Assembly: GCA_012295275.1 (NCBI GenBank)
Contig: CM022679.1
Span: 26,844,850 to 26,908,849 of the forward strand
Direction: 5' to 3'
From: Chrysomallon squamiferum
Lineage: Eukaryota > Mollusca > Gastropoda > Neomphalida > Peltospiridae
DNA length: 64,000 bases
The notes under the pieces were generated by a model, which was not told where the DNA came from, did not search any database, and saw nothing but the letters and a program-made list of their open reading frames with translations. A program made the position numbers and the translations under genes. This document shows, in pieces, positions 1 to 42,180 of the stretch (position 1 is its first letter; every line of letters begins with the position of its first letter).

Positions 1-217
1 CATTTATATGTTGCCTACATTTTTCGTTTTCTCTTTTTTCCATATGCTTTGTTACTAATCAAAAATTATTCAAAGAAATATATATTGCAGTAACTTGAAA
101 ATATACAAAATGAATTTAATCCTTTTATTGGTAGGTTTCTGGATTCATATTTATTGAGATTTTTCATAACTTGAATATACTTGGTGCATAATTCAGATCT
201 TTTGCTATTTATTATAG

Positions 218-6200: not shown

Positions 6201-6310
6201 CCCTGGAAACTAATACTTCATTACAATTTAGCCTAGATTTAAAAAACATACACAGCAACACTAACAGTTTGGATTCTTGTTATTTTTTTTAAAACTTATA
6301 TCTTGTGTAT

Positions 6311-6345
<35 letters not shown>

Positions 6346-9300: not shown

Positions 9301-9517
9301 TAAAATGCTAGTCTTTTTAAAATAATAATAAAAACTATTATTTATATATATATATATATATATTTTTTTAATGTTTCTCTCTAAATTTCAGTGAAGCTGA
9401 AGCCACATTCTCCAAACTGCAATGAAAACTGCGCTCGCTTTTGCCATAACTGTCTTTCCAGAAGCCAAGAAAACCCACTGTTCTGTCCACAGCATGGGGA
9501 ATGTCAACCACCAATTG
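218..9517 (+). CDS. Gene A kinase module 1 (IRAK/Pelle-like) with Cys-rich tail
   Basis: Eight exons. The beta3 lysine is present (CDVVVKIL, exon 218-306) and a plausible alphaC Glu opens exon 1866-1945 (EMISSRKKHPFLLPLL). The hinge LMYPYMKNEDL (exon 2700-2864) resembles the IRAK hinge, including a Tyr in the gatekeeper position. The catalytic loop HRDVKPANILLD (exon 3204-3418) is complete, while the Mg-binding motif reads DPG instead of DFG. The activation segment GTPGYVDPDV replaces the usual APE with DPD, and the alphaF region is INDVFGLGVVMLQLL. Exons 8823-8907 and 9392-9517 add a Cys/His-rich segment. The Gly-rich-loop exon should lie just left of the window. The key catalytic residues that can be seen are intact, so phosphotransfer is possible, though the DPG motif makes this uncertain. 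Confidence 0.8.
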
Positions 9518-12500
9518 GTAAGTACCTTAGTATTTTTTCTGTGTTGTCAGTAGCATTTGTAATCAGTGTTAACTTTAGAAATTACATTGTCAGTACATTC
9601 ACTTCAAATATTGTTATCTTAGCTTATATATATATATATATTTCAAAGTCCTGTCCAGCTATTGTTACTCTATTCGGATTCCTGATGTAAATTCCTAATC
9701 AAAAGAACATTTTATATAGTAATTAGCATTGTCAACAGCAGCACACAATTTTGCCAGTACTATCACTTCTTAAAGAATGACAGAAATTTTGCACACTTAA
9801 TAAATAATGTTGGTGTACTTTTTGTAGTTACTATACTCTATAGGCATCTAAATGAACAAGATTATTATTATTTTGTCAAGAAGCAAAAGTCTGCATAAAT
9901 ACATATGGTGCACATTTTGCATTGTCTTATTGATTGTTATGGCAGAGCGACCTAAAAAACTGAACTTTCTAAAGCAAAATTAATAGAAGAGTTTTCATCA
10001 AACCCACTGTGTAAACAGAAAGATTTAGCTGTGGAGGGTTCCCGTTGGGCTTGAAAAATAGGGAGAAGTGAGGTTTTGTAAAGGTGAAATGAGACAATAC
10101 AACAAAACCAAGCCCTTGTCACAAAACCGAAATTAAGCATCTAATGTTCGTTGTAAATAAAATTATCAAATGTTAACTGAATTTAACTATTACATGATTG
10201 TCATACAGTATTCACAGTAAATATTTCTAGTGAAAATAGTATCAACCTAGAAGACAGTGGCAGTTTTACATTCATTTTTCATTTGTGAATAAAACCTGGA
10301 AAATTAGTTTCAAAGTACTTTTTTTTTTGTTGAACGTCATAATAATTTGAGATCTGTGAGAGGTATTCTAAAAAAAAAAAACACAACTAAAAAATTTAAA
10401 CATTATTATTAGTAAAACATGATTGATAAAAACAGTGGTTACCAATATAAATAATGTACAAAAATAGATATATTGATTTCTGATACATAGTTATTAACAA
10501 TATCAAGAGTATTTAATATTAAAAATAATACTTAAAATTAAAATCCAGATTATTATAATTATTGTAGAAATTCAAAATGTGTACGTTTTGCATTCTGTGT
10601 GGCACATCTTTGCTTCCTGATAATTCAGTCTTGCATGACAAGTCAAGTTCTGAGGATAGTGAATAGCCAGGAGCTAGTTATTAATAATATCAGCAGTATT
10701 TAATATAAATTATGCAGTGAAGATGTAATCCGGATAATTGTAATTGTTGTAGGTCAAAATGTAATGGCATTCCCAGATGTGCCTGACTCATCATTGTTTC
10801 CTGATAATTCACTGGTACCGTCAGTGGCTAATGATTCATGTTCACAGAGTAGCAAAGAGCCAGTAGCTGGAGATAAAGATGGCCAACATGATAACATCAC
10901 AGCCAAAAAGATGAGCATAACAGAAATCAATCAGTATTTTAAGGAGAGTAATATATTGTGTTCTGGTGGAGGAAAAACTGTTTATAAAGGTTCAGATTTT
11001 TACTGCATGTTTAAATTTCATCTACATATAGAAAATGTATCCAGTTTCTTAAGAAGTTACAACACATGTTTGATGAAGTCTGCCAATTTTATTGATCTTT
11101 TCTATTTAATCTACCATCATAAAATTTAAATGTTGCCTACATTTATAATTTTCTTTTCTGTTCTTCTACTGTGTTATTAACCAAAAAATTATTCCAAGAA
11201 ATATATATCACAGTAACTTGAATTTAATCCTTTTATGGATAGAATCTGAATTCATATTAACTGAAATTTTTCATAATTTGTACATAAATGGTGATAATTC
11301 ATATTTTTGCTATTTATTATAGGACATAAGAAATATAATCACTGTGATGTGGTTTTAAGTGTTTTGCATAATAAAGAATCTTGTACAATGGTAAGACCTA
11401 CAACATATTTTCTTTTTTTATTTATTATTATCAATTGTTTTTTGTTTTTTTTGTTGTTTTTTTTAATTGATTTTTTTAAATTATTAATATTTGTTTGAGT
11501 TGTTATCAGAAAGCAAAACAGTTATTTCCACTATAAGGAATCTTTTTTCTTTTAATTTGTTTGTTGCATACACACATGCTAAGCACATACCAAAGTTTAT
11601 TCTGAAACTAAAATGTATATAGATATATATACTGATTGTGACATCTGTCCACATAAATTTATTATTTATTTATTTAGCTGATTTTAAAACTTTAGAAAAT
11701 TGCATCACAAAATAATTCTAGGGAAATTCCTTCATAATGTACGTGAATGTGTGAGGTGAAAATCAACCACTTAATGTCATTGTTTTAGCCAGATCTAATC
11801 ATTACCTCTCTCAAATTTGATAACTAATGTTTTGGACAGTTTGAGTAAAATCCTTTTGAGAAAATATAAATAAAGTGATTTATACTTTAAAAACGAAAAA
11901 GGAGTATTGGTTTCCTGAAGTAATTTTTATCTAATAGTGAATTTGATGAAAGTTTCAAGTTCACCATTTCAGATATTAATTATGTCAATTACAATATTTT
12001 ATTATCTCATACAATGTTGTTGATGGTTGAATTCTATAAATTAGCACATTCTGACATTCTGTTACTCAAAGTAGCTGTTTGTGACTTTGGCCAGATGTTC
12101 CCACACAGGATCACATTTCATTTCATTTCAATTTCTCTGGAGTAAATATTTATCGTTCACCATTTCAAATATTAATTTATGTCAAATTACAATATTTTAT
12201 CAGCTTGTACTATGTTGTTGATGTTTGAGTTTTATGTCTGTACAACATTGTGTCAGCTCTTGCTATGATGATGATGTTATTTGACTTTTATGTCTATACA
12301 TTTTACCAGCTCATACTGTGACATTGATGTAGTTTGAGTGTCATGTCTACTTAATGTTTATATTCTTGCACAAAGTTTTTGACATGCCACATTTGAACCA
12401 TTATTTTCTTCAGCAAAATATTTGAATATCAAAACTGTTTTGATGTTTTTTTCAGATGAAGATGGCATCCAGAAAAAAGCATCCTTTTTTGCTGCCGTTG

Positions 12501-15500
12501 TTAGCATATTGTGAGGAGAATCGAGAGGAAAACAGGTAATAACAAAGAAAAAAACGGGAATGAAACTGACTGTGACATCTGGCCACGTAACGGAGAATTA
12601 TTTACCTATTTATCAGTTGTTCTTTATCATACTACTACCTCTAGCTCAATTAAAACAGAAGCACAATGACCAAATAAAGGTTTTTCATTTTTAAGTTTTT
12701 CTTTAATTTTTTTGTTAAAATCCAAGTGTTGGATAATTAATGGAATGTGTATTCCAAATGTCCAGAACAAATACCAATTTTTACATAGTATGAAGAAATA
12801 CACTCATAAAAAGATAAATCTGAAAGATTTTATCAATGCAGTTGCCCGACTTCTTTTCGCTTTGAACTGAAAATAAATACTAACTGCTGAATTTAGCTAT
12901 TAATTTTAATTCTTGTATATATGCGTATCTCTTTGATTGTTAACACAAATTTGTTAATTTTTTTGTCTGTCGTTGTTAGTTTTCTTATTTTTTTAATTAA
13001 TATTTTTATAAGCATGTACAAATAGGATTCCAATCATGATTTTATTCAAGCCAGACTTTAATAGATGTCTGCAGAAAGGAAAATATTTATCTTTAATTTT
13101 CTTAAAAGTTTAATTTACAATAAAATGCTAAATAATGCATTTTTATTTGTTTACACAGCTAGTACACTTTCTAATAAAACTGTTTGGATGGATATTCCTG
13201 TACATGGATTAATGGTAAAGAAACAATTTCATACTTTCAGGCAGTGCATTTTAATGTATCCATATATGAAGAATGAAGATCTTCAAACTTATGTGCAGGA
13301 AAAAAAGGTGTTATCATTCGAGAATTGTATTCGCATTGTGTACCACGTGTCTGCAGGGTTAAAGTTCATGCACAAAGATGATGGAAATAACGGGTATGGA
13401 ATTAACATGATTAATATAAGGGAGGAATCAATTACAATTAATTAATACATCTTCATTTTAATTAAATTATCTTGCTCTTGTCTTTGCTTGTGTGTGTGTG
13501 TGTGTGTTGTGTGTATGTGGTCAGATAGATAGAAGTGTATATTTATAATACAACAGCATGCATAATCTATGTTTAAACAACATCTGTAGATGAATATTGC
13601 AGGAGTGGACTATTACAGAGTTTATTCCTCATTTGATAAACATATACTGATGTAAGTAATATGAAAAATGGTTGTCAGAACACATCTTGTGTATTACAGC
13701 TAATTAATCTGTCCACTGCTTTTTCTCTCCCACAGAACACAGATCCTACACAGAGATGTTAAGGCTTCAAATATTTTGCTTGATGACATGCTGAATGCTC
13801 GACTCAGTGATCCAGGAATAGCAAGAGAGCTTGACGATGTGACAATCGTAATGCCACCAGGCACTCCAGGATATGCTGATCCTGATGTTACAAGTTCAGG
13901 AGAGTTTAGACCAATAAATGATGTGTTTGGTCTTGGAGTGGGTGAGTGACCTGAAATATTATTAACCAACACACACATACACACACACATACATATTTAC
14001 ATAAGTGCACACATGCATATACACACACACACACAAACAAACACAAACACTACACATGTATACACAATCACAGACCCACTGATTAATACTGTAGCTTTAA
14101 CATTTTATTATGTGATGTTTAGATACAAACACACACCTGTCATTTATACAAAAACATACATACAAGTCTATTTACATTACAATCATAATGTATTAAATAC
14201 TGGTAGGAGTGGTATCATCTTGAATCACAATGTTGTATCTATATATTCACAATCATCGAGTTCTCTGACTGTTCAGATTGTTGAAGTACATAACATGTAA
14301 TGATAAACATTTTTCAGTTATCGTGGTCATAATAAAATTGTTGTGACTTTGTTTGTATTTATGGCTTTATTGTTATTTGAAATTGGTAAGAAAAGCTCTC
14401 ACCCTGAAAGCTGATATTTCATTACAATTTAGCCATGACTCAAAAAATACAAACAGCAACACAGACATTAACAGTTTGGACTCTTGTTATTTTTTAAAGC
14501 TAATTTGAAAAGTAGATTTTAAGACAAATCAACATAGCAAATCTGTGTGTGTGTGTGTGTGTGTGTGTGTTTGTGTGTGTTTCAATTATGATGACTTGTC
14601 TTAAATTATGGTTTTCTTATTTGTTTATAAATATAAATATGACTTAACTGCAAAAACTTTAATAACAACAATCTTCACCATTTCTACGAGCAAGATTGGT
14701 TGGCTATAAAATAGAACATGGAGTACAAATTAAATGAAAATATAAAAAGATAAAACTTGAAACTTATTTTGTTAATTCTTAATTATAAAAATGTGTACCA
14801 GTTTAGTCCACTGTAATTCCAGTTTCTGAACAAATTGAATTGATTTTACATTCCTGAGTGGGTACTGACTTATTTTAGTTTTTGTGTTTTGTCGAACAAA
14901 AGTAGCTCTGTTTTTCAGGAGTTTTTAGTTTTGATTTTATAAATCTATGACCTGTATTTCAAGTCTCTGAACATACGAATTTGAATCATATCCTTGTTTC
15001 GTGCAGGTTTTTTATTTTTTGTTGTTGTTGTTTTGTACGGTTTTTATGTTGCATTTTTTGCTGTTGGTAGTGATAATATAATGAAATTATATAACCATAT
15101 TGAGGAAATGTGCTGTATTTCATCTGATCATTGTTTTCAAATTATTTTTTTGTTAAGTCTGTTCACTGTTTTGTGGAATTGTTCATTCTTTCATGAAGTC
15201 TGTTAATTGTTTTCTAGAATAGGTTATTCATTTGTCAGCATGTTGTTCACTGTGTTGTGGAACTGTTCACAATTTGATGAGGTTCATTCACATTTACAAT
15301 TTAAGTTACTGAGCAGAAACTTATATATTATGTTATTAATATCTGTGTAATATATTACTACATTTCAGTTATGTTGCAACTGCTTTTAAATAAGCCAGCA
15401 CAGATTGAAGTGCAAGAAAAAGGCAAGACAAAGAAGAGGAATTTATTCCAAATGTGTAGAAACAGACCTGAAAAAGACATTATGAAAGATGTAAGAAAAT

Positions 15501-16523
15501 TGTACTATACCTTTCTTTTATTATAAACAAGATGATTTGTTTGCTTCAGAATTCTTACAAATTTTTTTAGTAAGCATATTTCATTGTGTGAAATTTAGTA
15601 TTTCAGTTTTTTAGGCTTTAGATTGAAGCTAAAATCCCTCTTTTGTTTCATCTTTCAGGTAGCCAGGGGAGAGTAAAATGTTTAGTCTTTTTGGCGTTTA
15701 ACCTAACTGTGTTATGGTAGCTGAAACTGAATATGCTGCTGTTTTTCTGTCAGCCAATTTTATGAAGAGGCACTGACTTCACATGTTGTTATTTTAATAA
15801 CCTGGTGTGCTTCCAGTGATAAAAGTTAGCCCCTTTAAAGTGCCAAAGTCTCAACCATCCAATGTACCAAAGCTAATTTATCAAAAGTTGTGGTGTTTTC
15901 TCTCTGGTCAGTGGAAAGTTGAATGAAAAAGAATCACTGATCTGGTCACAGAGGGAAAACAAAATGGGTGAAGTTGGAATCCTAGCAGTGCTGTAGCAAT
16001 TCTATAAGTTACACAAAAAGTTAATAATAAAATGTACTCAGATACCAGTCATCAGTATTTCACGGTTGTGTATTTCACTTTTGCTGTATTTTTTATTTTT
16101 TATTTTTTTCAGGCTAAAGAACAACACAAAGATTGGCCAGAAGAATCATTAAAGAAATTTGTCAACTTAGCATGGCAGGCAATAGCTGTTGCTGATGATC
16201 GAATTACTCTTGATAGTCTCTCTGGACAGCTGCGTGTGAGTTGGTCTGCAGATATAAGTATCAGATTGAATTCCTTTAAGCATTGTTGATTTGAGAAAAC
16301 TGATTTCATTTCCAATTAGTTTGAAATATGTTAATAATTAATTCTCCAGTCAAACTCTAGGAAGCCAAAACAAAAGAACATTATTAAAATAAACCATGTT
16401 TAACTTTTCATAATATCATTTCTGTCCTCTATAACACTGGTTTTTATTTTTTTATTTTATGTTATTTTGCTATTTAATTTTATTTAATTTTTTTTATTTT
16501 CATTAATAAATTAATTTATTATT

Positions 16524-16562
<39 letters not shown>

Positions 16563-18775
16563 ATTATTATTATTATATGTCAATGAAGGGACACGTTATT
16601 ACTTGTAAAATATTCATGTTACTTTCAGTCCAATGTTTTATACAGACACTAACATTTCAAAATTTGTTTTCATTCTTTTACTATTTTTGTAACTGGGAGA
16701 GAAGGAATCTATAATAAATTGTATTGCTTGTGAAATATTTATTTTAATTTTTTAACAATTTGATTTATTTTTAAACAGGAACTTCTCAATAGTGCCAGTG
16801 CTGAATTGTGGAAATGTCCTTCACAGTTGACAATGTGTTTGTCTTGTTTTGGCCACCCAATAGGTTAGTTTTATCTGTGGTTTTAGGATAGTTAAGATAT
16901 TTGCAACAATTTGATATCAGATGATTCTTTTAAAAAGATTAAGTTTTTGAAATTTGGCAGCTGTTCAGTATATAGATAGACAGATATATATATTTTATTA
17001 TTTCAGTGAAGCTGAAGCCACATTCTCGAAAATGCAATGACAACTGTGCTCGCTTTTGCATGGACTGTCTTTCCAGAAGCCAAGAAAACCCACTGTTCTG
17101 TCCACAGCATGGGGAATGTCAACCACCAATTGGTAAGTACCTTAGTATTTTTTCTGTGTTGTCAGTAACATTTGTAATCAGTGTTAACTTTAGAAATTAC
17201 ATTGTCAGTAGACACACTTCAAATATGGTTAACTTAGCTTATTCACACACAAGCACGCATGCACGCACGTGCACACACACACACACACACACAGTTGACT
17301 CCATTATGTTTAATCCGATTGCTGTCTACTTTGAATTTTGGATGTAAGTTCCAGAACAAAAGAATCAGTTGTATAGTAATCAGTTCTGCCAACATACAAT
17401 TTTTGAACAAATATGGCAGTTTGCACACTTAATAAACAATGATGTACTTTTTGTAATTACTATAGGCATCTAAAACAACAAAATAATTATTACTGTGTTG
17501 ATACCTAAGTGAATTCAGATTTAGATTTAGGGTCAAAATACCTATGCTGCACACTTTGCATTGTCTTACTGAATTCTTCATAACAGCAGAGTGATCTAAG
17601 AAATAGCAATGTATAGAACTTTCTAAACCAAAATTAATAGAAGATTTAGCTATGCAGGGTTCTTGCTGTGCTAGAAAAACAGGGAGAAGTGAGATTTTGT
17701 ATAGGTTAAATGAAACAATATGACAAAACCAAACCATTGTCACAAAACTAAAATTAAACATGTATATATGTATATTGATATTCCACTTCTGATAAAACAC
17801 AGTTTTCAACAAGATATTTTTTATACAGACATTAATTATAAAATTATTTAATAAAAGGTTTATTCTTACATTTGTTTAGAATTACATGCAGCCTTCTCTG
17901 TTCGGTATTGGACCTCTACTTATGTTAGTTTGTTAATTTTAATCTTTTCTGTACATGTAATTCTGTACAGTCAGTTATCCAGTTCACCTCAGTTAATTTA
18001 ATTGTATACAAGTTAAAAGAACTGTGTTTATCATCAGCCTCTAATCACAACAGTAAACAATGCATTTTTTGTAGCTATTCAGACAGTTGGTCATATGATT
18101 CATTAATACATATAATTTGATGGAAATAACAGAAATCTGCTAGTGCAGCAAAATGAGTGTCAGTACTTTTTAACTTCCAAGTGATATAAATAAAGAAAGA
18201 AAGAAAGAAAGAAAACAGAAATTAAAACAAAAAAAATGTAGAAAGCAAAAATGGAAATTTAAACTTTGCTATTGGTTTAAAGTAAGGCAAAGTTTAGTAC
18301 AAAAGGGTAAGTATTTTGCCCATGTTGCCCCCTCACATGAACCCTGACTACGCAATTTAAAATATGAAGACAAACAATATCTTAAAATTTAGTGACCATT
18401 ATCAGAAAGTGTATGAAACCAACTTTTCGGCAGAGAATAACAACCAGAAAATTAAAAAATCTGAATGGATTGAAGATAAACACAATGACTGATCTTTCAT
18501 ATGTAGATGTTCTTAAAGACATAAATCAAATTAAATCCACTGGCAGACTTTTCCACCCATGTTAAACATGGAGGCCATGATACAGTGGTTGGCTTTGAGA
18601 GAAATATGAAATACTGTGATAACTAATAGATTATTTTCAGTCAACCTTTGATAGATGTTTAACTGTAGCATTTATAATATTTAAAATATATTCCAATTTA
18701 ATTTTTAATCTTTATAAACAAGCAGTTATCTAAACAGCTTGTGTCATTGGTCCCAAGTGAATCTGATTTTGACAG

Positions 18776-18809
<34 letters not shown>

Positions 18810-20717
18810 TGCATGCATTCATACAGACATGCCAGTGTATATACATACATACATACTTAGAGATGTAGACACACAGACACACAGACCCCATATACACACA
18901 CAGTCATGCATTCATACATACATACATATTAATAGACATATCGACACACAAATACACACACACTCGCACAGATCTACAGTAAAAGGAACGTCACAACAAT
19001 TTGGGATGAAAATGGTTACGAATAATAATCATAAAAATTGCTCACGTGGAAAATTTACTGAAGTACATACTATGCTGATCCATTTTATTTTGTGCTATGA
19101 ATTACAGACTTGTAACTCGTTAGTTTACATCATATAACTGTTCTTTCATAATCTTGTGTCCCTGTCATTCAGTAGCCATTGCCTTCATCTGATTTCTTTA
19201 TGAAAATAAAATGATTTCACTTCAGGTCACAATAACATATTTGTCCTGATGGTTTCTGGAATTGGTAAAAATCCAAAGGAGAAAATTATACTTAATTCAG
19301 ATATTGATAGAATGAAAGAAATTCTGGAGGATAAACATATCATTGGTGTCAGGTAAACTTTCTTTTTATTATTGCTACTGCTTATCCAAAATCCTTGGTC
19401 ACAAACCAAATCATAATGACAGTGTTCATTCGTTACACTTCATGAATTTGCAAATCAGTTACTGGTTTCCCTTTACTAGGTTAAAAATAAAATAATCTAC
19501 AAAGAAATGTAATGTGTAAGCATAAAACAGCACATAATTGTGGTTGATTCGTTATGCACTTCTAAACTAAGAAAAACTGCCCAAAATTTGCAATGTTCTC
19601 TAGTCAAATAAAAACATTTAGAAACGGGTTTAGAGATATTTTATAGTTATGGGTTTAGATAGATGTGCAAGTGATATTAAATTGACATTGCACAATATAA
19701 ATAAATATACTAATATATTTAATTAATAAATTGTAAACATCATGTTTGACTTTTATCAAGTCAGATATCAAAAATAAAGAATGTTAAATTATTATATAAA
19801 CAAATTTTAGATAATCTCATAATGTTTTATCATTGGGCAGCATCTGTTAGTAATGAACTCATATTTTTGATTTGCAGTTACATGTACATATTTATTAAAA
19901 TCTGTAATAAAAAATAATAATTAATTTGTTAGAGAAAGCATTTATCATATCATAAATACTTTTTTCATTTGTTCAATTTTAGTCTGAATTAGTTGTTTAT
20001 CATATATATTTTTATTATTTCCTTGTTTTTAAAAACTTTTTCAGTCCTGATAATATAACAGTGATCCGTGGAAATGCTGATAAAAACAGTATTTTAAGTG
20101 CTGTTCATAAGATCAAGAAAAAAGTGGAAGGCCAGTTTGAAAGTCTTTTCATATTTTACTATACTGGACACCACAATACAGAAAGGGAATTTTTAACTGA
20201 TAATCAGGAAGAAAATTATCTGAAAGAAGAGGAACTGAAAGATCATTTCCGACAACTGAATGCCAAATACATGTTGTTCATATTGGACACTTGTTATAGT
20301 GGGGGTGCTGACATTGGTGCAAAGGGAAATCATCCAGGTTACTCACCTCCCCGCCTTTGGGATCTTTTTGAGTCAGATTTGCAGGCAAAAGGAGAAATAT
20401 CTAGCTGTGTTGTTCAATGGTCTTCATCAGTGAAAAACCAGGAGTCTTATTATAAAGGAAACCTGAGTGCTTTTACCTCTGCAATCATCAGTCAGCTGAA
20501 AAATGAATGTGTCATTTCTTGTAAAGGCTGTTCATCCTGTAATGGTTTTCACGAAAGTGCAAAACAAAAGGGCTATATTGACCTTAAAGAACTACATGAC
20601 TCTGTTAAGTATCATGTTAGGAAAAGTACGAGTGGAAAACAGCTACCAGAATTACGTAAAAAACCAGAAGATGCATTTATCCCACCATTTGCATATTATG
20701 TTCATAAAGATATGTAA
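218..20717 (+). CDS. Gene A: tandem kinase-pseudokinase plus caspase-like protease, 5' partial
   Basis: Nineteen exons join in phase into 1000 codons ending at TAA 20715-20717; the 5' end lies left of the window. Exons: 218-306, 1866-1945, 2700-2864, 3204-3418, 7090-7211, 7894-8016, 8823-8907, 9392-9517 (kinase 1 plus Cys-rich); 10753-10989, 11323-11390, 12456-12535, 13241-13393, 13736-13941, 15369-15490, 16113-16235, 16779-16863, 17007-17132 (linker, kinase 2, Cys-rich); 19226-19352, 20045-20717 (protease). Both module boundaries are phase 1, so the first Cys-rich exon can splice in frame to the second linker exon. No terminal exon or DED exon is visible between 9517 and 10753, which is why I read one gene and not two. 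Kinase homology is to the IRAK/Pelle group. By analogy with gene B, DED exons probably lie upstream, outside the window. A cytoplasmic death or immune signalling role is inferred. An alternative is two genes, the first lacking a protease. Confidence 0.75.
509..1190. repeat. Interspersed-repeat insertion in gene A intron
   Basis: The intron matches gene B (33117-33150) and the second module of gene A up to about 508, and matches the second module again from about 1190 (compare 11655). The roughly 680 bp between is extra. It opens with GGGTCATTCCGTGTCAAATC and contains a run of TGACCTT half-sites at 821-888. No ORF, terminal repeat or target duplication was recognised, so the class is unknown. 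Confidence 0.5.
3427..3455. repeat. (CA)n microsatellite after gene A exon 3204-3418
   Basis: An uninterrupted CA run sits immediately after the GTGAGT donor. More CA-rich and CACACATA-like sequence continues to about 3660, followed by TA and poly-T tracts at 3745-3795. Equivalent introns in module 2 (13970-14050) and gene B (35085-35105) are also CA-rich. Confidence 0.8.
4175..6076. mobile_element. Tc1/mariner-type element, non-autonomous, with TA target duplication
   Basis: The ends are inverted repeats: TACTCTAACAAAAAAGAAAC on the left, and on the right its near-complement reading GTTTCTTTTTTGGGAGAGTA. The element is flanked by TA at 4173-4174 and 6077-6078. The paralogous intron of gene B near 35560 carries the uninterrupted site (TTTTTGTATTTTTTCAC), so insertion boundaries and TSD are defined by an empty site. 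The 1.9 kb holds only the C-terminal third of a transposase on the minus strand; the rest is not recognisable. Confidence 0.9.
4350..4700 (-). pseudogene. Tc1 transposase remnant
   Basis: The minus-strand reading resembles the C-terminal DDE region of Tc1 transposases: NARQHTTRLT, VLPWPSKSPDLNP, then HLWDELDREL. The Asp normally preceding NARPH is His, and the Glu normally following NPI is Gly, so two catalytic acids are gone. The frame also shifts after the run of leucines near 4440 (the continuation WATIPQGVIRNIIT is in another frame) and hits a stop. N-terminal DNA-binding and catalytic parts are missing. Inactive. Confidence 0.9.
6316..6343. repeat. (GT)n microsatellite, intron
   Basis: Simple GT run in the large intron 3419-7089 of gene A. 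A matching GT run occurs in the same intron of module 2 (14543-14580), so it predates the module duplication. Confidence 0.8.
8536..8606. repeat. (ATT)n/(ATC)n microsatellite, intron
   Basis: ATT triplets pass into ATC triplets in the intron between exons 7894-8016 and 8823-8907. The same intron carries GTT/ATT triplets in module 2 (16518-16575) and ATT triplets in gene B (37935-37996). Confidence 0.75.
10753..17132 (+). CDS. Gene A kinase module 2 (predicted pseudokinase) with Cys-rich tail
   Basis: Nine exons, beginning with a 237-bp Ser/Asp-rich linker exon that carries a degenerate Gly loop (LCSGGGKTVYKG). The beta3 lysine is replaced by Ser (CDVVLSVL, exon 11323-11390). The position of the alphaC Glu in the other copies is Met (MKMASRKKHPF, exon 12456-12535). 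HRDVKASNILLD is kept and the Mg motif is DPG. Exon 13241-13393 is 12 bp shorter than in the other two copies. Reading frames and all splice signals are intact, so this is not a decaying pseudogene; a non-catalytic, allosteric or scaffolding role is the natural inference. The Cys-rich exons 16779-16863 and 17007-17132 keep the Cys pattern of the other copies. Confidence 0.8.
14543..14580. repeat. (GT)n microsatellite, intron
   Basis: Simple GT run in intron 13942-15368 of gene A, orthologous in position to the run at 6316-6343. Confidence 0.8.
16518..16575. repeat. (GTT)n/(ATT)n microsatellite, intron
   Basis: Trinucleotide run in intron 16236-16778 of gene A. The motif differs between copies of this intron, showing rapid turnover. 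Confidence 0.75.
18779..18969. repeat. CA-rich simple repeat, intron before protease exons
   Basis: A pure CA run (18779-18807) is followed by CATA- and CACAGA-type tetramer/hexamer sequence. Gene B has the same block expanded at 40199-40430, so the length differs between the duplicates. Confidence 0.75.
19226..20717 (+). CDS. Gene A caspase-like (clan CD, C14-type) protease exons
   Basis: Exon 19226-19352 encodes the first strand and helix of a caspase fold (IFVLMVSGIG, then NSDIDRMKEILEDKHIIG). Exon 20045-20717 encodes the catalytic part: LFIFYYTGHH with the catalytic His, then YMLFILDTCYSGG with the catalytic Cys. The DTCYSGG style is that of metacaspase, paracaspase or CHAT proteases and not the QACxG of classic animal caspases. 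A Cys-rich stretch follows (VISCKGCSSCNGF) and the C-terminus is FIPPFAYYVHKDM. Both catalytic residues are present, so activity is plausible; substrate specificity cannot be read from the sequence. AATAAA-rich sequence begins about 30 bp after the stop. Confidence 0.85.
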
Positions 20718-21185: not shown

Positions 21186-21190
21186 TAATA

Positions 21191-21191
<1 letters not shown>

Positions 21192-21236: not shown

Positions 21237-21238
<2 letters not shown>

Positions 21239-22795: not shown

Positions 22796-23135
22796 TTTGT
22801 TTTTGTGAGAAAGAATCAAATTTGAATTATGAAAGAGATGAGCTAGCCTGAATATGTTTAAGAGTGACAGCTTTCAGTTCACATTAATGAGATTGTGTGG
22901 AACACAGTGAAACCAAAATATGCAAGAATAATTTGCACTTGTAAAAAATAATTAAAAACAAACACTTATAAGTCCATTGCTTGTCTTAATCAAGTACTAG
23001 GGGTAGAAGGAGAATGCCAGCTGAAATGTGGCACTATAACGCTCATCTTATTTGATCTGGACTGAATATTTCTCTTTGACTAAAGCATCCTTCTAAACAG
23101 ATTCTGTTATTTTAGTTTTAGTTAATTATAAATTA

Positions 23136-23296
23136 ATCAAGACCATGCCTGTGTTGGAATTGTCATCCATCCATCATATGGACAGCTGTTGTTCACTAGT
23201 TACTGCCTGATAGATTTCAGGATCTGTTCTCCTCAGCTGACCCTTTATTTTTCTCCTTCCAGCACAGAAACAGGACTGCTTTTCTAAAGTATCTGT
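23136..23296 (+). repeat. 161-bp copy of the RPUSD1 3' end
   Basis: The segment matches 49958-50118, immediately downstream of the RPUSD1 stop codon, over exactly 161 bp with no length change and roughly nine mismatches by eye. Orientation is the same. It sits between the two diverged copies of the gene A 3' flank and is absent from the gene B flank at 44555. It may be a small segmental duplication or a shared repeat. Confidence 0.85.
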
Positions 23297-30975: not shown

Positions 30976-33900
30976 ATGACTTCTGCAACTGATATCAGTG
31001 GTAAGTATGTCCGTCTGTCTGTAATGAATGAACCATTATGTCAAATGAAATGAATATGCTGGTTGATAAGTGTTTATTGCCATACAAAGAACAAAACATT
31101 TTGTCTGATAACCTTGAGCTATTGATACATTTTACCATTATCCGAAATTGTTCTGATAACTCAAAATAGTGAAATCATCTTCCTGTATGATTTTCTTTTG
31201 AAGATAAAGAAATTCGACAATTGCTTTCTTCAGTAGTGGATGAACTTAATTCTGATGAACAAGAACAGTTAAAACTTCTTTCTCAAGATGTTCTCAACGA
31301 AAAAGACAAAAGCGAAACACCACTAAAGCGTTTTGATATATTACTTAAAAGTAAAACAATATGTCCAGAAAATATGGCATTCCTTGTAGAGGCTCTGGAT
31401 TTGATGCAGCGTAGAGATGCCATTGAAAAGATTCAGAACTTTTACAAATATAAAGGACATATAAAGGACATCTCAAGATCAAAATTGTATATTTCTCCAT
31501 TTACTTGCCAACTTTATAAGTTGGGCTGCGACATGGATGAAAAAGATGTTCAAAATTTGGCTTTTCAACATAAAAAAGCAAATAAATACAAAATCGATGG
31601 GAACTGCTGACTCTGTTACGCAAGGAATCTGTTTTGAACGACTTGACAAGTATTGAAACGGTGAGGAAACTTCTGAAGCTTGCCCCTGATAAGAACAGTG
31701 AGAGACTTCACTATCTGCAGGAATATTCCTCACCTGATCAGTCAAAAGAAACTGGTAATTATTGCATGGAATAAGAAAATTATTTTAAAAAGAAGAAAAA
31801 AATAATAATGATGAAAATAACAGTTAACTGAAAACAGTTAGTATGTGTTATAGGAATTAGTTATTACAAATCCAATATGGACTGTAAATAAGATTATCAA
31901 ATGTGAATTTAACTTGATTTTGGTTACACATCTGTTATATAATTATCATACAGTGTGTTCAGTTAAATATTTCCAGTCAAAATAGCATCAACCTAGATGA
32001 CAGTGGCACTTATACATTAATTTTTCAGTTGTGAAAAACACCTGGGGAAATAATAGTTTGAAATTAAAAACTTTTTGATTAAATGTCTCAATAATTTGAG
32101 ATTCTGTGAAAGGTATTTTAGGTTAAAAACAAAACAAAACAAATGCTGAAAAATGTAAACATTGTGATCAGTAAAACACAACTTGATAAATTGTGGATAA
32201 ATATATTGATTTTTGGTTCATAGTTATTAATGATATCAGCAGTATTTAATATGAAAAAATACTTAAAATTGTACAATGTGTAAATGTATAATTATTTTCA
32301 CTTAAGACAAACAGTGAATGCAGTGAAAATGTAATCCAGATAATGGTAATTGTTGTAGGTCAAAATGTAATGGCATTGACAGATGTGCCTGACTCATCAT
32401 TGGTTTCTGATAATTCTCTGTCACAGTCAGTGGCTAATGATTCAAGTTCCCAGAGTAGCAAAGAGCCAGTAGCTGGAGATAAAGATGGCCAACATTACAA
32501 CACCACAGCCAAGAAGATGAGCAAAACAGAAATGAATGAATATTTTAAGGAGGATAATGAATTGTGTTCAGGTGCAGGAGGAACAGTTTATAAAGGTTCA
32601 GATTTTTATTGCATGTTTAAATTTCATATAAAAAATGTAACAAATCTAGCCACTAGTTTAAGAAGCTGCAAAACATGTTTGACAAAGTTTGCCACTTTTA
32701 TTAATCTTTTCAGTTTTATCTACCATCAGTAAAATTCAAACGTTTCCTACATTTTAATTTTCATTTCGTTTCTTATACTAATGTTATTAACCAAAAACTA
32801 TTCCAAGAAATATATATCACAATAACTGGAAGTATACAAAATGAATTGAATGTACTATTGCTATTTATTATAGGATGTAAGCAGTATAATGACTGTGATG
32901 TGGTTCTCAAGGTTTTGCATAAAGAAAACATGTCGAAATCTTTCAAAATGGTAAAACTTACCACACATTTTCTTTTTTTGTTACTATTTTTTATTTTTAT
33001 TTGTCTGAGTTATCAGAAAGCAAAACATTTATTTCCACTATAAGACATTTTTATTTCTTCTTTTTCATTATTTGTATTTGTTGCATACACATGTACAAAG
33101 CATATATCAAAGTCTTTTATGCTGCTATTGTGAAGCTTGAATGCATATAGTTTATGAGAGGACCATAGAGGATGGATCCTGTTACCCATTACAACTCAAC
33201 TTACAAATATCTCTCCATTGTGAATTTGATGGATGGTTGAGTTCACCATTTCAAATATTGATTATGTCAAATCACAATATTTTATCAGTTTGTACTATGG
33301 TGTTGATACTTGAGTGTTATATCTGTACAACATTTTGTCAGCTGGTGCTATGATGTTGATGTTGCCTGACTTTGATGTGTATTAATTGTATCAGTTCGTG
33401 TATGATATTGATTTTCTTTTTATTTTTAAAAATAACAAAATAAAAAAAGGAGTTTTGTGTTTCTTTCAGTTCGTGTATGATATTGATGTTTTTTTAGTGT
33501 TACGTCTGCATAACATTTTATCAGTTCATATGATGTTGTTTGGGTGTATGGTTGGCTGCGCAAGGCTCTTGATGTGCCTCAGCTAAATAATTTGTTTATG
33601 ACAAATGTCTTTATATTTTTTTCAGGAGCTTATTTCCTCCAGAAAAAAGCATCCTTTTTTGCTGCCATTGTTAGCTTATTGTGAGGAGAATCAAGAGGAA
33701 AATGGGTAATAACAAAGAAAAAAACAGGAATGAAACTGACTGTGACATCAGGCCATAATGAGAATTATTAACTTGTTTACCAGTCATTCCTTTATCATTG
33801 TACTGCTACTACTTGCTCAAAATTGAAACAGATGCTTAATAATCAAAAAGGGCTTTTATTTTTTATTTTTTATTTTTTTTTATAAAATCCAAATTTTCAC

Positions 33901-36900
33901 TATAATTACTGGAATATATATGGCAAATGTCCAGATCAAACACCCATTCTTACTTAGTATGAAGAAGTATATTGATAAAATAATAATCTGACATTTTATG
34001 ATCATCTGCCTTGATAACATATGAGACTGGAAATGAATACTGACTGCTGAATCTAGCTGTTAAGCTTACTGTGTTGACAGATAGATTTTTTATGTGTATT
34101 TGTGTGCATATCTCTTTGATTGTTAACAACAGTTTGGTAATTTTTGTCTGTAGTTGTTAGTTTTCTTATTTTTAATTTAATATTTTTATAAACATCTGCA
34201 GATAGTATTCCAATTATGACTTTATTTAAGCCAAGCTTTAATAGATGGAACCTATCGAGTCCCAAAAGTATCACTTAATGTGCATAGAAGAAAATGTTCA
34301 TCTTTAATTTTAAAATATTTTTCTTTAATTTTTAAAATGTTTTATTTTAGATATGTAGAATAGAATGCTAAATAATCATTTTTATTTGTTTAAACAGCTA
34401 ATACACTTTTTAACAAGAATTTTTGGCATGGTTATTCCTTTACGTGGATTAATGGTAAAGAAGCAATTTTATGCTTTCAGGCAGTGCATTTTAATGTTTC
34501 CACATATGAAGAATAGAGATCTTGAGGTCCGTCTAAAAGATGTTTGGGATAAAAAAGCTATGTTATTGTTGGAAGATCGTGTTCGCATTGTGTACCAGGT
34601 GTCTGTAGGATTAAATTTCTTGCACAGAAATGATGGAAATAATAGGTATGGAATTAGTGTGATTGATGAAAGAAAGAAGGCATATTAGAGTTAATTAATA
34701 CATCTTCATTTTAGTTAAATCATCTCATTCTGTATGTGTGTGTTTCTTGGTAGAGGTAGTTATGCTTATATGTATGATAGCACAGGTATGCTTATCTCAT
34801 GAATATTTGCATGACAGTTTTTCTTTTCTTTTTTCTCCCACAGAAAACGCATCCTTCACAGAGATGTGAAAGCAGCAAATATTTTGCTTGATGACATGCT
34901 GAATGCTCGACTCAGTGATCCAGGAATAGCAAGAGAGCTTGATCGTCGGACACATATCACAACTATAACTCCATCAGGCACTGCAGGATATATTGATCCT
35001 GATGTTACAAGTTCAGGAAGGTTTAGACCAATAAATGATGTGTTTAGTCTTGGAGTGGGTGAGTGAGCTGAAATATTATTAACCAAAACACACAAAACAC
35101 ACAGTCACAGACACATTGTTTAAAGCCTGTATGCTGTAGCATTAACATGTTATTATGAGATGTTCAGATACAAGCACTAATTTGTTTATAACATACGTAG
35201 ACACAGTTCTATTCAAATTATGATAATATTGTATTAAAGACTAGTAAAAGTGATATCATCTTCAATCACAATGTTTTCCACTTGTGTGTGTGTGTGTGTG
35301 TCAGGTTATTTTAAATTTCTCTAAGTTTCTGTTTTCTTGTCATTGCAGCCATACTTTGTAAGATCTCACTCATATATTATAAGAAATGCCCTGACAAACT
35401 GCTGACATCTCTTGTGAGGTCTGCATCAGTGTTTTGTTTCTGCCAACACTGAGCAACATGCAGCAGATTGATTTCTCAGTCATAGGGTAACGTTCTATTT
35501 CAGCCCCATTTGTTGTTTTCAAGGGCTGAAAGTTTTTGCATGCACTTGTTATTTTTGTATTTTTTCACAGTCAGTATTGAGTTCTCTGATTGTTGAAGTA
35601 CATAGCATGTAATGGTATAACACTGTTTTCAGTTACAGTGGCTTTAATGAAATTGTGACTTTCTTTGTTTGTATTTATGGCTTCGTTCTTACTAAATTGG
35701 TGGGAAATCTTTCAGCCCTGGAAGCTACCATTTCATTACAAGTCTTATTATTATTATTATTATTTTTTTTTTAGCTAGATGTGTGAGTGTACTGTATATC
35801 TATGTCTATGTATATATGTGTGTGTTTATGTGTGTCTTCGTTATAATTATGTATGTATCTATGTTTGTCAGTTATGATGATGTGTCTTAAATTCTGCTTT
35901 TTGTGTTAATTGATAAATATAAATGTGAGATAACTGCAATAAATTCAATAACAAACAATCTTCATTAACATGGCAACATTGGTTGGGTATAATATAAAAC
36001 ATTAAATAAAATGAGAATTGAAAAAATAATACTTTAAAGTTATGTTGTTTATTCTAAATTATAAAAATGTTCTACCTGTAACTCCAATCTCTGAAGAAAT
36101 CAAAAGAATTTTACATTTCTGTGTGTGTTGAGTTACGTTAGTTTATGTTTTTCGGATCAAATAAATCACTGTTTTTTTCAGGAGCTTTTTAGTTTGTTTT
36201 TGAAATGTGTACCAGTATTTCAAGTCTCAGAATGTATCAGATTGATTTATATGCTGCTGTTGTTTTTTTTTTTTTTAATGTTTTTTCTCTTTTTTCCCTT
36301 TTTCTATTGGTACTGATGATATAACAAGGAACTATTTAGCTGTATTGAGGAAAAGTGCTGTATATCATCTGTTCATTATATTTTCAATTGTTTATTCTTT
36401 TATGAAGTCTGTTTACTGTTTTGTGGAACTGTTTATCTTTTGTGAAGTTTGTTCACTGTTTAATGGAATTATTTGTTCTTTTGTAAAGTCTGTTCACTGT
36501 GTTGTGGAATTGTTCACAATTCAATGAAGTTTGTTTACATTTACAATTGAAGTTACTGAGCAGAAACGTAAATGTTGTTATGTTATTAGTATCTGTTTAA
36601 TACATTACTACATTTCAGTTATGCTGCAACTGCTTTTAAATAAGCCGGAACAGATTGAAGTGGAAAAAGATGGAGAGACAGACATCAAGAATTTATTCCA
36701 AATCTATCGCAACAAATCTGAGAAAGATGTTCTGGAAGAAGTAAGAAAATTATACTATACTTCTCTTTTAATTCATATAAGTTGATTTGTTTGCTTCAGA
36801 AATCTAACTAAAAACCTTTTTCTATGAGTCATGTCCTGTGAAGAATGTTTCAGTGTTATAATTAAGGCTTGAATGTAGCAATAGCTTGGGAATTTTTTCG

Positions 36901-38621
36901 CTACTGGTATCTCTCAAGAAATTCTGGAATTCTAACCACAGCAGTATACTGGACAACTACCTTATTAATGCCTCTTCAGGATTTTTATTTATCTGTGTCT
37001 GAAATTCCACAAGGTGACGTAAGTGTTAATTTGGTCTTGTGAGAAGCATGACAAGGTACAGTCATGTGAGCTAAAAGAATTGTTCATAGTTATGAGCTTG
37101 CATTTGAGAGATCAATATTACACACTTGTATAAAATTCTCAGTCAGTTTTTTGAAGAGACACTGTGTTCACTGACTGGCATATCATTTTAATAACTTAGT
37201 GTGCTTCTAGTGATAAAAGTTGAAGTCCAGCCATTCAGAGTGCCAAAGTCTCAGCCGGCCAGTGTACGAAAGCTAATTTATCAAAAGTGGTGACCTTTCC
37301 TCCCTGGTCAGTGGGAAGCTGAATGAAAAAAGAATCACTTGTTATGACTGCTGGTGTGATCAGTTAAGAAACAAAAATGGGAGAAGGTGGAATCCTAGCA
37401 GTGGTGTAGCAGTTGTTTAATTTCCACAAAATATCAATAATAAAATGTATTCAGATGCCATTCATCAATATTACACTGTTGTATGTTTAATTTTTTCTGT
37501 ATTTTTCTTCTTTCTTTTTTTTTAAGGCTAAAAAACAGCACAAAGAATGGTCGGATGAATTATTGAAGAAATTTGTCAACTTAGCTTGGCAGGCAATAGC
37601 TGTTGCTGATGATCGAATTACTGCTGATAGTCTCTCTGAACAGCTACATGTGAGTTGGTCTGCAGATATAAGTATCAGATTGAATTCCTTTAAGCATTGT
37701 TGAGTTGAGAAAACTGAAATTAGACTGATTTCATTTCGAGTTAGTTGGAAATGTGTTAATAATTTCTTCCCCAGTCAAACTCTAGGAAGCCAAAAGAAAA
37801 GAACATTGTTAAAATAAACCAAAAACCTTTTCATAATATCATTTCTGTCCTCTATAACACTGGTTTTTATTGATATTTTAATTTTAATATTATTTAATTT
37901 TATTTAAATATTTTATTTTCATTTATCAATTAATTTATTATTATTATTATTGTTGTTATTATTATTATTATTTATTATTATTATTATTATTATTATATGT
38001 CAATGAAGGGACATATTAATTGTAATATATTTGTGTTACTTTCAGTTCAATGTTTTATACAGACGCTAACATTTGAAAATTTGTTAATCTATAGTAAATC
38101 TTATTGCTTGTGAAATATTTATTTTAATTTTTAACAGTTTGATTTATTTTTAAACAGGAACTTCTCATTAGCGCCAGTGCTGAATTGTGGAAATGTCCTT
38201 CACAGTTGACAATGTGTGTGTCTTGTTTTGGCCAACCAATAGGTTAGTTTTATCTCTGGTTTTAGGATAGTTAAGATATTTGCAACAATTTGATATCAGA
38301 TGATTTTTTTCAAAAAGATTAAGTTTTTGAAATTTGGCAGCTGTTCAGTATATAGATAGACAGATATATATATTTTATTATTTCAGTGAAGCTGAAGCCA
38401 CTTTCTCCAAACTGCAATGAAAACTGTGCTCGCTTTTGCATGGATTGTCTTTCCAGAAGCCAAGAAAACCCACTGTTCTGTCCACAGCATGGGGAATGTC
38501 AACCACCAATTGGTAAGTACCTTAGTATTTTCTCTGTGATGTCAGTAACATTTGTAATCAGTGTTAACTTTAGAAATTACATTGTCAGTAGATTCACTTT
38601 AAATATTGTTATCTTAGCTCA

Positions 38622-38663
<42 letters not shown>

Positions 38664-40197
38664 GGAGTCTGTGGAAACTGACCTTTGACTAACCCAGATT
38701 TCTGTGAAAAGCAGCACCATTTCAAAGTCCCATCCAGATATTGTCAATCTGTTATGTCTAATCTGGATGCTGTCTACTGTGAATTTCGGATGTAAGTTCC
38801 AGAACAAAAGAATAAGTTGTATAGTAATCAGTTTTGCCAACAATTTTTGAACAAATACGGCAGTTTGCACACTTAATAAACAATGATGTACTTTTTGTAA
38901 TTACTATAGTTATCTAAAAGAACAAAATAATTATTACTGTGTTGATACCTAAGTGAATTCAGATTTAGATTTAGGGTCAAAATACCTATGCTGCACATTT
39001 TGCATTGTCTTACTCAATTCTTCATAACAGCAGAGTGACCTAAGAAATGGTAATGTATTGAACTTTCTAAACCAAAATTAATAGAAGTTTTAGCTATGCA
39101 GGGTTCTTGCTAGGCTAGAAAAACAGGGAGAAGTGAGGTTTTGTATAGGTCAAATGAAAAACAATATGACAAAACCAAACCATTGTCACAAAACTAAAAT
39201 TAAACATGTGTATATTGATATTCCACTTCTGATAAAACACGGTTTTCAGCAAGGTATTTTTTATACAGACATTAATAATAAAATTATTTAATAAAAGGTT
39301 TATTCTTACATTTGTTTAGAATTACATGCAGTCTGCTCTGTTCGGTATCAGACCTCTACTTATGTTAGTTTGTTAATTTTAATCTTTTCTGTACCTGTAA
39401 TTCTGTACAGTCAGTTATCCAGTTCACCTCAGTTAATTTAATTGTATACAAGTTAAAAGAACTGTGTTTATCATCAGCCTCTAATCACAACAATAAAACA
39501 AGGCATTTTTTGTAGCTATTCAGACAGTTGGTCACATGATTCACTAATACATATAATTTGATGGAAATAACGGAAATCTGCAGGTTGACAGCAAAATGTG
39601 TGTCAATACTTCTTAACTTCCAAGTGATATAAATAAATAAATAAACAGAACAGAAATTAAAACAAAAAAATGTAGAAAACAAAAATGGAAATTTAAACTT
39701 TGCTGTCAGTTTAAAATAAGGCTAAATTTAGTACAAAAGGGTAAGTATTTTGCCCATGTTGCCCCCTCACATGAACCCTGACTACACAATTTAAAATATG
39801 AAGACAAACAATATCTTAAAATTTTTGACCATTATCAGCAAGTGTATGAAACCAACTTTTCAGCAGAGAATAACAACCAGAAAAATATAAAATTAGAATG
39901 GATTGAAGATAAACACTATGACTGATCTTTCATATATAGATGTTCTTAAAGACATAAATCAAATTAAATCCATTGGCAGACTTTTCCACCCATGTTAAAC
40001 ATGGAGGCCATAATACAGTGGTTGGCTTTGAGAGAAATATGAAATACTGTGATAACTAACAGATTATTTTTAGTCAACCTTTGATAGATGTTTAACTGTA
40101 GCATTTATAATCAAATGTATTCCATTTTAATCTTTATAAACAAGCAGTTATCTAAACAGCTTGTGTCATTGGTCCCAAGTGAATCTGATTTTGACAG

Positions 40198-40243
<46 letters not shown>

Positions 40244-40369
40244 CATTCATACAGACATGCCAGTGTATATACATACATACTTAGAGATGTAGACACACAG
40301 ACACACACACCCCATATACACATACAGTCATGCATACATACATACATACATACATATTAAGAGACATAT

Positions 40370-40403
<34 letters not shown>

Positions 40404-42180
40404 CACACACACACTCACACTCACACAGATCTACAGTAAAAGGAACGTCACAACAATGTGGGATGAAAATGGTTACGAATAATAATCATAAAAATTGCTT
40501 ATGTGGAAAATTTACTGAAGTACATACTATGCTGATCCATTTTATTTTGTGCTATGAATTACAGACTTGTAACTTATTAGTTTACATCATATAACTGTTC
40601 TTTCATAATCTTGTGTGCCTGTCATTCAGTAGCCATTGCCTTCACCTGATTTCATTATGAAACTAAAATGATTTCACTTCAGGTCACAATAACATATTTG
40701 TCCTGATGGTTTCTGGAATTGGTAAAAATCCAAAGGAGAAAATTATACTTAATTCTGATATTGATAGAATGAAAGAAATTCTGGAGGATAAACATATCAT
40801 TGGTGTCAGGTAAACTTTCTTTTTATTATTGCTACTGCTTATCCAAAATCCTTGGTCACAAACCAAATCATAATGACAGTGTTCATTCGTTACACTTCAT
40901 GAATTTGCAAATCAGTTACTGGTTTCCCTTTACTAGGTTAAAAATAAAATAATCTACAAAGAAATGTAATGTGTAAGCATAAAACAGCACATAATTGTGG
41001 TTGATTCGTTATGCACTTCTAAACTAAGAAAAACTGCCCAAAATTTGCAATGTTCTCTAGTCAAATAAAAACATTTAGAAATGGGTTTAGAGATATTTTA
41101 TAGTTGTGGGTTTAGATAGATGTATCAGTGATATTAAATGCACATTACTGCACAATATAAATAAATATACTAATATATTTAATTAATAAATTGTAAACAT
41201 GTTTGACTTTTATCAAGTCAGATAACAAAATTGATAAATGGTATATTATTATTAAATAAACTCTTAATGTTTTATCACTGGGCAGTTTCTGTTAATAATG
41301 GACGCACATTTTTGATTTGCAGTTACTTGTATGTATTCGTTAATCTGTAATAAAAATAATAATCAGTTTGTTAAAGACAGCATTTGTCACATCATAAACA
41401 CTTTCATTTGTTCAGTAAGAACTTTTTCATTTTTTGCTATTTTAGTCTGAATTAGTTGTTTATCATATATATTTTTATTATTTCCTTGTTTTTAAAAACT
41501 TTTTCAGTCCTGATAATATAACAGTGATCAGTGAAAAGGCTGATAAAAACAGTATTTTAAATGCTGTTGATCAGATAAAGGAAAAAGTGGAAGGCCGGTT
41601 TGAAAGTCTTTTCATATTTTACTATACCGGACACCACACTAAGGAAAGAGAATTTTTAACTGACGAACAGAAGAAATGTCATGTAAAAGAAGAGGAACTG
41701 AAAGATCATTTCCGACAACTGAATGCCACATACATGTTGTTCATACTGGACACTTGTTATAGTGGGGGTGCTGACATTGGTGCAAAGGGAGATTATCAAG
41801 ACTACTCACCTCCCTGCCTTTGGGATCTTTTTGAGTCTGATTTGCAGGCAAAAGGAGAAAAGTCTGTATGTGTTGTTCAATGGTCTTCATCAGCTGAAAA
41901 CCAGGAGTCTTATTATAAAGGAAACCAGAGTGCTTTTACCTATGCAATCATCAGTCAGCTGAAAAATGAATGTGTCATTTCCCGTAAAGACTGTTTTTAC
42001 TGTAATGGTTTTTGCAAAAGTGCAAAACAAAAGGGCTATATTGACCTTAAAGAACTACATGATTCTGTTGAGTATCACGTTAGGAAAATTAAGAGTGGAG
42101 ATCAGCTACCAAAACTACATAAAAAACCAGAAGATGCATTTATCCCACCATTTGCATATTATGTTCATAAAGATATTTAA
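30976..42180 (+). CDS. Gene B: tandem DED, IRAK-like kinase, Cys-rich module, caspase-like protease fusion
   Basis: Thirteen coding exons: 30976-31000, 31204-31754, 32359-32595, 32874-32950, 33626-33705, 34481-34645, 34844-35058, 36619-36740, 37527-37649, 38158-38242, 38387-38512, 40683-40809, 41508-42180. The start is the ATG of MTSATDIS, whose G/AT split codon joins the DED exon in phase. If the single missing base in DED2 is allowed for, the sum gives 868 residues. Approximate layout: DED1 9-85, DED2 95-185, linker 193-255, kinase 258-490 (HRD 384-386, DPG 404-406), helical and Cys-rich 491-602, protease 603-868 (His 687 or 688, Cys 728). No signal peptide or membrane segment; cytoplasmic. 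The combination suggests one chain that oligomerises through DEDs, signals by kinase and cleaves by protease. All kinase motifs are intact apart from DPG. If the frameshift is real, only a DED-less product from a downstream ATG would be possible. Confidence 0.85.
31204..31754 (+). CDS. Gene B tandem death effector domain exon, with one-base frameshift
   Basis: DED1 shows the family pattern: two N-terminal helices (SSVVDELNSDEQEQLKLLS), a hydrophobic helix (PLKRFDILLKS), then ENMAFLVEALDLMQRRDAIE ending in the R-x-D-type motif of DEDs. DED2 starts at SPFTCQLYKLGCDMDEKDV and is cut by a stop at 31608-31610. The expected continuation WELLTLLRKESVLNDLTSI and LLKLAPDKNSERLHYLQEY is in the -1 frame from about 31598. 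The exon is 551 nt; its entry and exit phases require 552, so exactly one base is missing near 31595. This could be a true null, a polymorphism or an assembly error. Tandem DEDs are known from caspase-8 and c-FLIP. Confidence 0.75.
32359..38512 (+). CDS. Gene B kinase and Cys-rich module
   Basis: Nine exons. The linker exon ends in a Gly-rich loop (LCSGAGGTVYKG). The beta3 Lys (CDVVLKVL) and alphaC Glu (ELISSRKKHPF) are present. The hinge LMFPHMKNRDL, catalytic loop HRDVKAANILLD, Mg motif DPG, activation segment GTAGYIDPDV and alphaF INDVFSLGVVMLQLL follow. Exon 37527-37649 (KKFVNLAWQAIAVADDRIT) completes the C-lobe. Exons 38158-38242 and 38387-38512 encode eight cysteines and a histidine (MCVSC; CNENCARFCMDC; CPQHGEC) suited to two metal sites. 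Probably an active kinase, with the DPG caveat. Confidence 0.85.
38624..38661. repeat. (CA)n microsatellite, gene B intron
   Basis: Simple CA run in intron 38513-40682, corresponding to 17268-17293 in gene A. Confidence 0.8.
40199..40430. repeat. CA-rich simple repeats, gene B intron
   Basis: Two pure CA runs (40199-40241 and 40371-40414) surround CATA-type tetramers. The gene A counterpart is 18779-18969. Confidence 0.8.
40683..42180 (+). CDS. Gene B caspase-like protease exons
   Basis: Exon 40683-40809 differs from its gene A counterpart by one silent change. Exon 41508-42180 keeps the catalytic blocks unchanged (LFIFYYTGHH; LFILDTCYSGGADIGAKG) but differs from gene A at about 41 of 218 residues, many of them charge changes. 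C-terminus FIPPFAYYVHKDI. AATAAA-type signals lie at about 42210-42224. Confidence 0.85.

Follow-up and report, generated by a model that had tools for sequence, protein, structure and literature searches.

Within a 64,000-nucleotide stretch of the genome of the scaly-foot snail Chrysomallon squamiferum (assembly GCA_012295275.1, contig CM022679.1, positions 26,844,850 to 26,908,849 of the forward strand; hereafter the window), the gene at 30976-42180, here called copy 3, appears on balance to belong to a small snail gene family that has been duplicated locally and encodes a predicted single-chain signalling protease. Its parts are a tandem death effector domain (DED) exon, a kinase, a Cys/His-rich module and a C14 protease. 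It is very unlikely that this domain order arose by chance; the same order recurs in a paralogue upstream of the window and in a gene of Gigantopelta aegis. An earlier note, made from the letters alone, had described copy 3 as a single gene, and missed the two further copies in the window (copies 1 and 2), the upstream paralogue and the substitution of DPG for the kinase DFG motif. A further upstream relative is referred to as gene B.

Gene model and domains of copy 3

Copy 3 extends from an ATG at 30976 to a stop codon at 42180 in 13 exons, with GT-AG at 12 of the 12 junctions and phases that are compatible throughout except within exon 2:

Exon 1, 30976..31000, plus strand: start codon and first 8 codons; GT donor, phase 1; a matching exon 1 lies upstream of the paralogue
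Exon 2, 31204..31754, plus strand: tandem DED; one-base frameshift in the DED2 half; DED1 found by Pfam; unbroken in the paralogue
Exon 3, 32359..32595, plus strand: linker and kinase glycine loop
Exon 4, 32874..32950, plus strand: kinase beta3 lysine (VVLKVLH)
Exon 5, 33626..33705, plus strand: kinase helix C region
Exon 6, 34481..34645, plus strand: kinase
Exon 7, 34844..35058, plus strand: kinase HRD, DPG (in place of DFG) and GTAGYIDP
Exon 8, 36619..36740, plus strand: kinase C-lobe
Exon 9, 37527..37649, plus strand: end of the kinase C-lobe
Exon 10, 38158..38242, plus strand: Cys/His module, first half
Exon 11, 38387..38512, plus strand: Cys/His module, second half
Exon 12, 40683..40809, plus strand: start of the C14 protease
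Exon 13, 41508..42180, plus strand: C14 protease with His (YYTGH), Cys (DTCYSGG) and stop codon

In frame 0, exon 2 encodes DED1 and half of DED2 up to a stop at 31608-31610, while a different frame is open over the remaining part of DED2. Because no single frame is open across exon 2, a continuous chain needs read-through, and copy 3 was analysed as an 868-residue read-through with an X placed at the frameshift. The claim that all parts are joined in one frame is therefore upheld by the splice sites and the phases, but fails within exon 2, where the assembled open reading frame is broken.

The assignments of DED, kinase and C14 all hold in profile searches, those of DED and C14 reaching their cut-offs when the exons are taken in isolation. 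With the DED exon alone, Pfam finds DED1 at 1.7e-9 (38.2 bits, cut-off 35.9), whereas within the full chain the match drops to 8.9e-8, under the cut-off. DED2 of copy 3 has no Pfam match; the paralogue, however, gives two DED stretches (4.8e-15), so that the tandem DED proposed earlier is seen in the family, but in copy 3 only as DED1 followed by a frameshifted, unmatched DED2. Pfam recognises a DED in 3 of the 3 DED exons of the cluster, and a profile of these three exons, compared with PDB, finds cFLIP first (2.2e-6) together with caspase-8, the match spanning DED1 and the start of DED2. An N-terminal death domain of the IRAK/Pelle type was not found: the Death model reached 0.1 in the scan of copy 3 and 0.01 in the DED exons of the cluster, both under the cut-off. 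Elsewhere in the searched genome (404.6 Mb in 22 contigs), 28 of the 40 DED matches lie in C4:4182786-5511530, where C14 matches occur in the same stretch and which is perhaps a caspase-8-like expansion, and a further DED match is located at C15:23157145.

The kinase domain of copy 3 is matched by Pfam at 2.5e-31. Among the best 60 of 1471 PDB matches, plant receptor kinases such as BRI1 and SymRK come first, with IRAK4 highest among the animal kinases, which places the domain close to the receptor-like kinase (RLK), Pelle and IRAK kinases. The catalytic motifs of IRAK/Pelle are retained in part: HRD is present in all five copies, but DPG replaces DFG in four of them and in Gigantopelta (DPR in gene B), and the APE-type Glu is absent (no PE). 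The beta3 Lys is present in copies 1 and 3 and in the paralogue, and is lost in copy 2 (Ser) and in gene B (Asn). The kinase is IRAK-like, as the earlier note had it, and these motif losses indicate that some chains are probably pseudokinases.

The module following the kinase has the pattern C-x2-C-x14-C-x3-C-x3-C-x2-C-x10-C-x2-H-x2-C, which copies 2 and 3 share exactly with Gigantopelta and which is absent from the paralogue because exon 10 is frameshifted there. Although no Pfam or NCBIfam family matches it, this conservation confirms a Cys/His-rich module as part of the chain; I take its spacing to resemble that of a RING finger.

Exons 12 and 13 alone match Pfam C14 at 2.3e-12 (47.6 bits, cut-off 21.4), in agreement with the clan CD protease proposed earlier, and in place of the canonical QACxG active site they carry DTCYSGG. 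This motif is invariant in four aligned sequences (copies 2 and 3, the paralogue and Gigantopelta), all of which keep the His and the Cys. The NCBIfam model for EACC1-associated caspases (NF047832) matches positions 24-187 of 211 at 6e-16, with 58.6 bits against a cut-off of 140; it matches 4 of the 4 family sequences tested, all under the cut-off, and gives no match with the single canonical caspase (QACQG) tested from this genome. The PADLOC caspase model gives 2.8e-5. In metacaspases and MALT1, the S1 pocket is lined by an Asp that lies two positions ahead of the catalytic Cys and goes with a preference for Arg or Lys; animal caspases have Gln at that position. The Asp in DTCYSGG therefore suggests cleavage after Arg or Lys, not after Asp.

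One could argue that this is nevertheless a canonical animal caspase whose motif has drifted, the protein being an initiator of the caspase-8 type into which a kinase was inserted, as the Pfam C14 match and the proximity of the DED profile to cFLIP and caspase-8 would allow. I consider this very improbable, given the invariance of DTCYSGG and the behaviour of the EACC1-type model, and also since open reading frames with QACQG exist elsewhere, on contigs C1, C8 and C13. QACQG is found in 5 of the 8 C14-domain loci read (plus-strand frames only), and with ordinary caspases in the same genome, the DED-kinase-C14 family would be a parallel line. A recent bacterial transfer of the protease was rejected, as nine prokaryote loci, found by scanning for two peptide patterns, are only 20-31% identical and an intron splits the domain.

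Related copies in the snail and in Gigantopelta

Apart from copy 3, the window contains two of its three family copies as follows:

Copy 1, 217..9519, plus strand: kinase and Cys module in open frames; linker exon located immediately upstream of the window
Copy 2, 10753..20717, plus strand: linker, kinase, Cys module and C14 in 11 exons, none of them frameshifted; Ser in place of the beta3 Lys

The paralogue, at C15:26780837-26792292, starts 95 kb upstream of copy 3 and has the same domain order and a DED exon free of breaks; the acceptor of its exon 2 is shifted by six bases, in frame, and its exon 10, in the Cys module, is frameshifted. Gene B contributes a third tandem-DED exon at C15:26817303, followed by kinase exons to about 26823164. 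A 200-base N gap at C15:26824783 comes after it, and its missing exons may therefore be an assembly loss. Exon 3 starts in phase 1 and exon 11 finishes in it, which makes the kinase-Cys block a symmetric module; judging from these phases, copy 1 could splice in frame into copy 2.

In a genome-wide protease search, 13 candidates were scored and 10 matched, six of these being the two exons of three cluster copies. These three are the close protease copies found in the whole genome (82-100% identity), and all lie within this cluster. The remaining four matches are distant (27-32% identity) and fall on contig C14, at C14:6138040-6175157, with open frames of up to 258 residues.

The search for the same domain order in other species, suggested with the first description, was successful. 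A protein search with residues 440-868 yielded one relative among 5909 candidates, the uncharacterised NCBI gene model LOC121378532 (1504 residues) of Gigantopelta aegis, which I take to belong to the same family as Chrysomallon squamiferum. Pfam assigns it a CARD (12-98), one DED (137-213), a kinase (826-1067) and a C14 domain (1222-1426), a second DED being apparent by alignment only. Between kinase and protease, 695 aligned columns show 44% identity, and in the DED region identity is 35% over 147 columns. The protein has in one chain and in the same order the DED, the HRD and DPG motifs of the kinase, the identically spaced Cys/His module and DTCYSGG. It differs in its additional N-terminal CARD and its long middle region; across the 334 kb examined around the snail cluster, no similar CARD exon was found. 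Residues about 310-580 of the Gigantopelta protein give the impression of a TRADD-N-type region, with no Pfam match. A search with the protease only gave one relative among 368 candidates (P0001, 33% identical), and the Gigantopelta C-terminus as query retrieved only itself among 1287 candidates.

The window also shows a long duplicated block, 91-96% identical between 17304-23137 and 38752-44551, that spans the protease exons and sequence downstream of them, and part of which also matches near 23346-23738. Inside this block, both protease copies are followed downstream by a conserved open stretch (...VYQLVAERFFNQTRKYKPLLF...), at 42421-42774 and 20960-21337. Towards its end the window is more GC-rich, with tandem repeats of 66, 55 and 43 bases at 60644-60907, 61587-61882 and 62981-63403, respectively.

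Intact chain or decaying duplicates

Several observations speak against a single-chain protease that is intact and under constraint. Both full DED-bearing copies are frameshifted once (copy 3 in exon 2, the paralogue in exon 10), and among such copies no intact full open reading frame was seen in the assembly. In the full-chain scan of the read-through, C14 is unlisted at E values up to 1; PF00656, searched against the genome in six frames (90 matches), recovered from the cluster only the protease exon of copy 2 and not copy 3; and PDB sequence searches gave no solved-structure relative of the protease. The ratios of non-synonymous to synonymous substitution rates (dN/dS, by Nei-Gojobori, for the pairs paralogue-copy 3, paralogue-copy 2 and copy 2-copy 3) are 0.64, 0.90 and 0.70 for the protease and 0.75, 0.92 and 0.67 for kinase exons 4-9, indicating weak constraint or diversification. 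For the DED part, compared between the paralogue and copy 3 only, the ratio is 1.69 (3.7 synonymous and 23.3 non-synonymous differences). Finally, no DED exon was found by tblastn in copies 1 and 2, and no protease exons were found in copy 1.

The missing DED exons would fit an arrangement in which a DED gene merely adjoins a kinase-Cys-protease gene, the two being joined only on paper. This I regard as improbable, as the DED exon directly precedes the linker and kinase exons at three loci (copy 3, the paralogue and gene B), the phases fit in both modelled loci, and the Gigantopelta gene model joins the DED to the kinase and protease.

Alternatively, the cluster may be a pseudogenising array of decaying local duplicates, of which copy 3 would yield at most a DED-only, FLIP-like decoy fragment, or nothing. 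The stop in copy 3 after about 140 residues, the frameshift in the paralogue, the lost beta3 lysines of copy 2 and gene B, and the dN/dS of 0.64-0.92 for protease and kinase agree with such decay, which nonetheless seems to me rather doubtful. Exons 2-13 of copy 3, together with 12 paralogue exons and 11 exons of copy 2, contain only two frameshifts, each of a single base, and are otherwise free of stops; the splice sites are kept, and three copies as well as Gigantopelta retain the protease His and Cys. All other exon-length differences among these three copies are multiples of three, whereas in four introns compared among the three copies 52 of the 76 gaps are not (E9-E10: 4/6, 2/6, 6/8; E10-E11: 3/3, 2/2, 1/1; E11-E12: 9/12, 8/10, 13/16; E12-E13: 0/0, 2/6, 2/6). 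The published account of the source assembly mentions nanopore and Illumina reads, 15 pseudo-chromosomes and seven unanchored contigs, and gives 1.38% heterozygosity and a genome estimate of 444.4 Mb (PMC7142155). With exon gaps in threes and intron gaps mostly not, error in a nanopore-based assembly is favoured over decay, and the frameshift in DED2 of copy 3 is more likely a sequence error than a sign of decay, although this is unproved.

The Cys module has dN/dS of 0.26, 0.93 and 0.92 for the same three pairs. Intron 12 differs by 0.4% between the paralogue (C15:26790924-26791623) and copy 3 (window 40809-41508), compared with a synonymous rate (dS) of 0.19 in the kinase, which suggests gene conversion; that the two are alleles was rejected on account of the same kinase dS. 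From these comparisons, constraint, diversification and conversion are each possible for the family.

Possible mode of action and relation to known systems

The reading that I favour, by a modest measure and from predicted domains and motifs, is that of a DED-assembled protease of bacterial or metacaspase-like C14 type, activated by proximity, with a regulatory, perhaps inactive, kinase, and possibly cutting after Arg or Lys. The tandem DEDs, plus the CARD in Gigantopelta, would nucleate filaments or join FADD/caspase-8-like platforms, and the resulting crowding of chains would activate the C14 domain, which would then cut after the basic residues rather than after Asp. The kinase could serve as a regulator, gate or scaffold, weakened in some copies, and the Cys/His module could act as a zinc domain, either E3-like or structural. 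The self-contained signalosome of the earlier note, and its gating by the kinase, are likewise inferred.

Like caspase-8 and cFLIP, the chain carries a tandem DED at its N-terminus and a C14 domain at its C-terminus, but it has a kinase and a Cys module between them, DTCYSGG instead of QACxG, and a C14 domain nearer to a bacterial-type model. With IRAK4/Pelle and the plant RLKs it has the kinase domain in common; unlike IRAK4 and Pelle, it has DPG for DFG, no APE-type Glu, DEDs in place of a death domain, and a fused protease. The bacterial EACC1-associated caspases, treated in passages of eLife 52696, resemble it in the protease profile match, but this stays under the curated cut-off, and the nine prokaryote loci are only 20-31% identical. 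Death-fold fusions in amphioxus and sponge represent lineage-specific joining of adaptor and effector domains, but the passages concerned describe no DED-DED-kinase-protease chain (Genome Biol 9:R123; eLife 70394). Related fusions, other than this chain, appear in passages of these two papers, of eLife 52696 and of BMC Genomics 20:5. In the ranked lists from the open-access literature searched, no description of a DED-DED-kinase-Cys-protease chain was found. The earlier view that no such family had been described thus agrees with the literature searched, but the chain was already annotated, unnamed, in Gigantopelta aegis.

A bolder proposal, which I put forward tentatively and think rather unlikely as a whole, is that vent snails have death-fold signalosomes complete in one chain. 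These would be RING-bearing proteases of bacterial or metacaspase-like type, assembled through their DEDs, gated by a kinase or pseudokinase and cleaving after Arg or Lys; they would have evolved fast by local duplication and conversion alongside a symbiotic lifestyle, and would act separately from the ordinary caspases.

Adaptor, kinase and protease are normally brought together by recruitment. A chain combining an adaptor, a kinase and a non-caspase C14 protease would, if true, show how fusion rewires death signalling in animals. It would also allow a test of whether DED filaments directly fire a basic-specific protease.

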